From Glandiceps talaboti (taxonomy: Eukaryota > Hemichordata > Enteropneusta > Spengelidae): DNA of 64,000 nucleotides. The notes below the pieces were generated by a model. The model was given only the letters and a program-made list of their open reading frames with translations. It was not told the origin of the DNA and did not search any database. Made by a program: the position numbers and the translations under genes. The stretch spans positions 5,202,322 through 5,266,321 of the forward strand of contig NC_135570.1 of the NCBI RefSeq assembly GCF_964340395.1. Reading direction: 5' to 3'. Positions 9,055 to 26,259 of the stretch are shown here, one piece after another; position 1 is the stretch's first letter; each line of letters begins with the position of its first letter.

Positions 9055-9397
9055 GTCAGACTCACAGGCATTTGTTTCCCGAGTTATGGCTCAGAATATT
9101 TGTATCAGAATATAATAAAATGACGATAATATCGTTAATATTGACGTATTAAACCAACACTATATGAAAGGGGTAAAATTACACATGTTTCTGTGATCGC
9201 GCAGTTTCACTAAATGCGAAGGGTGTCTTCCTTCGCATTTAGTGAAACTGCGCGATCACAGAAACATGTGTAATTTTACCCCTTTCATATAGTGTTGGTT
9301 TAATACGTCAATATTAACGATATTATCGTCATTTTATTATATTCTGATACAAATATTCTGAGCCATAACTCGGGAAACAAATGCCTGTGGTCAGACT
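9055..9397. mobile_element. Perfect palindromic MITE with 8-bp target-site duplication
   Basis: Two 160-bp arms (9063-9222 and 9230-9389) are exact reverse complements, base for base, separated by a 7-nt loop (gtgtctt). The element starts cacaggcatttg and ends caaatgcctgtg. It is flanked by the direct repeat gtcagact at 9055-9062 and 9390-9397, an 8-bp target-site duplication. There is no coding capacity, so it would be mobilised in trans. An 8-bp duplication is the hallmark of hAT-type (also P or Merlin-type) transposases. The terminal sequence is not the classic hAT CAGRG, so the superfamily stays open. Perfect arms and a perfect duplication point to a recent insertion. It sits about 560 bp upstream of the start codon of the next gene. 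Confidence 0.9.
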
Positions 9398-25788: not shown

Positions 25789-25843
25789 CATTTGATAAAA
25801 CATTTCCATTTCAAGTGTTTGACTATTGAATTTTAATTGTGTG

Positions 25844-26259
25844 TCTGGGAGATTGTCAAACTGAATATACACTCAACCATGCACAGACTATATACACTCA
25901 ACCATGCACAGACTATATACACTCAACCATGCACAGACTATACACTCAACCATGCACAGACTATACACTCAACCATGCACAGACTATACACTCAACCATG
26001 CACAGACTATATACTCAACCATGCACAGACTATATACACTCAACCATGCACAGACTATATACACTCAACCATGCACAGACTATATACTCAACCATGCACA
26101 GACTATATACACTCAACCATGCACAGACTATATATACTCAACCATGCACAGACTATATACACTCAACCATGCACAGACTATACACTCAACCATGCACAGA
26201 CTAGTATATAGTCTTACTGTGCATGGTTGAGTGTTTATTCAGTTTGATAATCTCCCAGA
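25844..26259. mobile_element. Hairpin element with an internal 23-25-bp minisatellite
   Basis: The left end tctgggagattgtcaaactg then aata(t)acactcaacc reappears inverted at the right end (reverse complement tctgggagattatcaaactg then aataaacactcaacc), giving arms of about 43 bp with two mismatches. Between them is a tandem array of a 23-25-bp unit (ctcaaccatgcacagac plus a TA-rich spacer), about 14 copies. Length varies only by TA or TATA steps. I saw no clear target-site duplication. The arms contain the first unit of the array. Confidence 0.8.

Follow-up and report, generated by a model that had tools for sequence, protein, structure and literature searches.

Palindromes that have been introduced into cultured cells and animals are reportedly broken at their centre and rejoined with small changes, a process that Cunningham and co-authors are said to have described as rapid stabilizing palindrome rearrangements. 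Coding joints in V(D)J recombination form by the opening of hairpins, followed by small losses and short fillers that give individual junctions, and RAG-type target duplications are 5 bp long. In humans, PATRR8 and PATRR22 are natural palindromes of a few hundred bp that break at the centre of symmetry and for which asymmetric alleles exist; their central deletions are symmetric, and they are single loci that mediate translocations (PMC4255720). Among transposons, Galileo, a member of the P superfamily in Drosophila, is foldback-like: its terminal inverted repeats are long and vary in length, and some copies are made up of the two repeats only (PMC3573991, PMC4168063). These two-repeat copies average 1.7-2.2 kb, the target is GTANTAC, and the target duplications are 7 bp long, with 8 bp in three D. 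willistoni copies (PMC3573991, PMC4168063). The terms "gene conversion" and "homogeni" do not occur in the main text of the Galileo paper (PMC3573991).

Here we report a family of palindromic transposons, one copy of which lies in the window (the whole 64,000-nt stretch of DNA that was analysed), and whose unusual part is the combination of arm identity within each copy with centres that are mostly particular to the copy. Like Galileo, as portrayed in those two accounts, these are foldback-type elements with inverted repeats, here with a target duplication of 8 bp; unlike Galileo, the window copy measures 327 bp rather than 1.7-2.2 kb, nearly all of it is palindrome, and the targets are other than GTANTAC. 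The resemblance to PATRR8 and PATRR22, as the cited work presents them, lies in a natural palindrome of a few hundred bp with an altered symmetry centre, whereas the elements described here form a mobile family and their central losses are mostly unequal on the two sides. The individual junctions, with small losses and short fillers, may be likened to V(D)J coding joints, but no RAG-type enzyme is implicated and the duplication is 8 bp against 5 bp. Small losses or fillers at the centre (19 distinct junctions in 22 copies, spacers of 1-11 nt) are also what links the family to the revision of introduced palindromes, from which it differs in being a natural transposon family and in having some spacers, of 1-2 nt, that are smaller than expected for stabilisation. 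By analogy, palindrome revision by centre breakage would be the nearest known process. Palindromic MITEs with copy-specific centres were not found with a few word combinations in the titles and abstract beginnings of the open-access literature, and we make no claim that they are absent from print.

The window palindrome occupies positions 9063-9389 (327 bp). Its left arm (9063-9222, forward strand, 160 nt) begins with the tip CACAGGCATTTGTTTCCCGAG, CACAGG starting at 9063, and its right arm (9230-9389, reverse strand) is the exact reverse complement of the left, with CCTGTG ending at 9389; between them lies a 7-nt spacer on the forward strand, GTGTCTT (9223-9229). This spacer corresponds to the inner end of the right arm in other copies, and the partner 7 nt are absent from the left arm. 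The element is flanked on the forward strand by the target site duplication GTCAGACT (gtcagact), present in the same letters at 9055-9062 and 9390-9397. A first-pass annotation of this DNA had described a 327-bp palindrome with exact 160-bp arms, a 7-nt loop and gtcagact on both sides, and our coordinates and the 100% complementarity of the arms bear this out. The predicted RNA fold of positions 9063-9389 has an energy of -281.3 kcal/mol (z = -46.6), and 0/100 shuffled sequences fold as stably, which excludes a chance origin of the palindrome; the RNA fold otherwise only restates it. No second match to the arm was found in the 64,000-nt window at E <= 0.01. Elsewhere in the window, positions 25830-26230 hold a repetitive stretch that is open in three frames, with peptides of repeated HSTMHRLYTQ-like units in the list of open reading frames.

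The genome searched comprises 590 Mb in 47 contigs. The 21-nt tip, with at most one mismatch, occurs at 613 genomic places, and a reversed-pattern control at 0. A search with the whole element gave 87 match rows from the 40 candidates, of 834, that were scored, and placed copies on many contigs; a palindrome can match on both strands, so that a place may be counted twice. Parsing of 58 loci yielded 23 distinct palindromes with lengths of 307-339 bp. A perfect 8-bp target duplication flanks 21 of the 23, and these 21 duplications differ from one another; the exceptions are L007, with a 7-bp duplication, and L028, a palindrome nested within an array of five arms whose two outer flanks read CTGTGGAC. 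The element is short, with terminal inverted repeats, many copies and a target duplication fixed at 8 bp, as in MITEs, and belongs to a high-copy non-autonomous transposon family, a palindromic MITE of the foldback type. The first-pass annotation had called the window copy a foldback MITE with an 8-bp duplication and had proposed a genome search for further arm copies flanked in this way; the 613 tips and the 21/23 perfect duplications now support its reading.

Two pairs of paralogous copies of the same insertion (L019/L020 and L024/L025), whose elements are identical up to strand, were each merged by dropping one member. Left out of the 23 were a palindromic copy at C1:33993676-33994023 (L017, the same place as L046/L047), in which part of the right tip is tandemly repeated and a target duplication is lacking, and L055, whose right arm is short, whose flanks are alike at 7/8 positions, and near whose middle a perfect stem of 10 nt was looked for and not found. 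Comparisons between copies used 22 elements, that is, the 23 minus a member of a diverged subfamily (L053) with arms differing at 10 columns. Their selection rested on resemblance to the window copy or, on C1-C2, on an exact tip, and they are a non-random and small part of the 613 tips.

When the left arm of each of the 22 copies is compared with its own right arm over 145 columns, the mismatches total 16, and the arms are identical throughout in 12/22 copies. Permuting the right arms among copies gave a mean of 69.1 mismatches and a minimum of 50, and 0/2000 permutations were as low as 16. Arm identity is a family trait. Variants private to one copy, in the sense of this sample, are found in both arms in 10 cases and in one arm in 10; the mirrored ones include a C>T at alignment column 50 in the window copy and an A>G at column 19 in L026. 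Independent drift of two arms would rarely produce such mirrored variants. The alternatives are in-place conversion between the two arms, or a stage in every lineage at which one arm serves as template for the other. The target duplications are too short to tell equalisation before insertion from equalisation after it. Arm homogenisation had been offered in the first-pass annotation as an alternative, and the mirrored private variants and the 16 mismatches against 69.1 argue for it. The same annotation had otherwise taken perfect arms, together with the perfect duplication, to imply a very recent insertion; this needs correcting, since throughout the sample the two arms of a copy resemble each other, and their perfection alone is no proof of recency.

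The centres present a different picture. The inner end of the arm reads GAAGGAAGACAC, from which copies depart through small losses, one-sided or two-sided, or through short fillers (ATAAA, T, GGGTA, C, A and A in the six copies where fillers were read). Among the 22 copies, 20 centre sequences can be told apart, or 19 junctions if the comparison is confined to the 10 nt beside the spacer; losses on each side were entered by hand, while the test for full ends, the symmetry test and the spacers were computed. No copy has a spacer of 0 nt, three have 1 nt and three have 2 nt, and copies with spacers of 1-2 nt are still almost perfect palindromes. The full inner end is kept on at least one side in 14/22 copies, two of which keep it on both sides with a filler between. 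Centres differ within four groups of copies that have the same left-arm sequence. Some junctions are common to separate insertions, namely those of L013/L020/L026, of L008/L044, and of L010 and the dropped copy L046.

Paralogues of single insertions bear on the time at which centres change. In L019/L020 the aligned pieces, element included, are 99.5-99.8% identical, and in L024/L025 identity is 98.9%, again including the element (1151 columns, 3 of them mismatched and 10 gapped); within each pair the centre is the same. Once inserted, the centre is stable over the span of divergence of these paralogues, an indication that changes to it occur with transposition or close to that event.

Broken copies were seen as well. 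At one locus on C1 (L042), a single arm stops exactly at the inner end (GACAC) and is followed by flanking DNA. Its flank recurs on C20 (L075) with no arm and a single 8-bp target, and by BLAST and side-by-side comparison this paralogue holds 100 bp that are absent from L042; a further locus (L076) has, by eye, the same neighbourhood with no arm and a single target. Set against the empty site, L042 has undergone a loss that began at the centre of the palindrome and took away an arm, a target copy and 100 bp of flank. Inspected by eye, 6/9 single-tip loci (L032, L042, L045, L048, L051 and L052) end at the centre or no more than about 30 nt beyond it, L035 and L039 stop earlier, and L036 retains a short second tip together with the perfect duplication CTGCAGTA. 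At L051 (C2:1471242), the 8 bp flanking the single arm, GGCGGAAC, recur 179 nt from the tip, and the second tip is absent.

Other members of the family are larger. An 830-bp element at C6:3918302-3919131 (L027) consists of five arms (>> >> >> << <<) with CTGTGGAC on both outer sides; its arms, each at 97.5% identity with the window arm, by eye have their variants in common. Longer relatives span 562-1256 bp. L077, a palindrome of 903 bp, has TTCCAGTC on both sides and a self-complementarity of 92.8% from end to end, and the 1256-bp L078 has ends that are 79.8% alike over about 500 bp, with flanks alike at 7/8 positions; L031 and L049 have interior sequence in common with L077. The short element would most simply be a central-deletion form of an L077-like palindrome, because L077 runs on past GACAC with AAGGTATG.

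Which transposase moves the family can be approached from its termini and targets. P elements have termini of the form CANRG and insert at a GC-rich palindrome like GTCCGGAC; hAT elements have termini of the form YARNG and 8-bp duplications of the form nTnTAnAn. The element end CACAG would fit CANRG rather than YARNG. The symmetrised consensus of the 21 target sites is G(G/T)(C/T)NN(G/A)(C/A)C, a weak preference, with G at position 1 in 23/42 counts and 0.13-0.55 bits per position within the duplication, and it departs from the hAT pattern, with T at position 4 and A at position 5 in 8/42 symmetrised counts each. From the 8-bp duplication, the first-pass annotation had proposed a hAT-, P- or Merlin-type transposase; the 21-site consensus speaks against hAT and is weakly P-like. 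In the P superfamily the target duplication is 8 bp, 7 bp being found mostly in Galileo, and an ANAGT/ACTNT motif lies across the target boundary in P and 1360 elements (PMC4168063). This boundary motif is not seen at the 21 sites, where A stands at position -1 in 11/42 symmetrised counts.

The P-type transposase domain PF21787 has 13 hits in the genome and 0 in 14 control genomes. No arm was found within about 1.5 kb of the 13 hits, nor did the 13 loci have inverted end pairs with at least 7/8 matching flanking bases; the search for an autonomous element sharing the termini, which the first-pass annotation had recommended, thus found none over that distance. Two of the P-type loci, L061 (C14:24546894) and L062 (C19:16472492), are 99.97% identical over the 3444 bp compared, and their ends must lie further out because the identity spans all of this length; such near-identity marks a recent copy or duplication. 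A further P-type transposase locus is at C24:18354572. The palindromic MITE is possibly served by a P-superfamily-like transposase.

ISL2EU-type genes (DDE_Tnp_4, HTH_Tnp_4, THAP, YqaJ) and a RING ORF beside L042 were considered as an autonomous partner and rejected, since L075 has the same neighbourhood with no arm. Membership in ISL2EU itself was also rejected, its target duplication being a 2-bp AT (PMC4482050) against the 8-bp duplications here, and the ISL2EU-type genes adjoin the L042 insertion rather than being its cargo. The RING-finger ORF (L042:562-1341, reverse strand; also C20:13360338-13361090) adjoins a THAP-like ORF and an ISL2EU-type gene and has two further close matches on C20. 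At C1:29358882-29368082 (L072/L073), an ISL2EU-type region lies in an inverted duplication with 99.84% identity over 4390 aligned bp, and its domains are DDE_Tnp_4 with HTH_Tnp_4 and YqaJ with a weak PHD match.

In this sample, then, copies are dispersed and flanked by 8-bp duplications, one target is seen empty in a paralogue, and arms are alike within each copy while centres mostly differ from one insertion to the next. We consider it somewhat more probable than not that this is a palindromic MITE moving by cut and paste, that hairpins equalise its arms, and that its centre breaks and is joined anew around the time of transposition. A transposase supplied from elsewhere would recognise the tips and insert the element with an 8-bp duplication, the short element being descended from a longer palindromic relative. 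The arms would fold on each other, and a mutation in one arm would be copied to the other or erased, by hairpin or cruciform repair or by template switching, which would hold the arms of a copy alike even as copies drift apart. The centre would be broken, either in the course of transposition or shortly afterwards, and rejoined with the loss of a few bases or with a short filler, and failed rejoining would take away one arm and some flank and leave a half-element. A hairpin nuclease and end joining may be involved. Recurring junctions and 1-nt spacers lower our confidence: inheritance, and not new formation, may account for some centres, and spacers of 1-2 nt hardly make a palindrome asymmetric, so that stabilisation by asymmetry is not obvious. 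Perfect palindromes may also drop out in sequencing, and the absence of uninterrupted centres may in part be an effect of sequencing or assembly. A bolder form of the proposal, which we consider unlikely, is that transposition proceeds via a hairpin form in which the arms are re-matched and each jump opens and reseals the tip, the centre of an insertion then being a "coding-joint-like" mark of that event.

Several other explanations deserve to be weighed against breakage and rejoining of the centre. Alike arms and new centres would be accounted for together by snap-back copying, in which, at transposition or during repair of the donor gap, the 3' end of an arm would snap back close to the centre and serve as its own template, giving arm identity and a new centre in one step. 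Fold-back priming allows for the overlaps of 1-2 nt seen at 8/13 junctions that were resolved without filler by exact matching, and the variants common to the arms of the five-arm element suggest repeated copying of an arm; however, 1-nt overlaps are common by chance and every fold in the sample would have to fall near the same inner end, and we hold this process to be rather unlikely. The clustering at that end is also a difficulty for an ordinary MITE, in which copies would be independent internal deletions of a longer palindrome through abortive gap repair, with no special equalisation of arms. Longer relatives do exist (L077 and L078, and L031 and L049 with related interiors), but the breakpoints of all 22 copies lie near one inner end and the copy-private variants in both arms need equalisation anyway, which makes this quite unlikely in our view.

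Inheritance offers another route to differing centres. If a few master palindromes had different centres and passed them on, the copy-specific look would come from the few copies read, and the three junctions that recur in separate insertions, together with the small part of the 613 tips that 22 copies represent, would be expected; that 19 distinct junctions occur in 22 copies, and that centres differ among copies with the same left arm, leaves such masters very unlikely. Perfect palindromes are, finally, a known product of fold-back reads, and hairpin reads could give rise to them through sequencing or assembly. This artefactual origin is strongly disfavoured, to the point of being exceedingly improbable, by the 21 different perfect 8-bp duplications, by the spread of copies over many contigs, by off-centre spacers specific to the copy and by the target that is seen empty in a paralogue.

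For elements of this kind, perfect arms should not serve to date insertions. If what we describe here holds genome-wide, breakage and repair of palindromes in the germline would be recorded in many natural near-perfect palindromes with marked centres, and the family would show how foldback transposons keep their arms alike.
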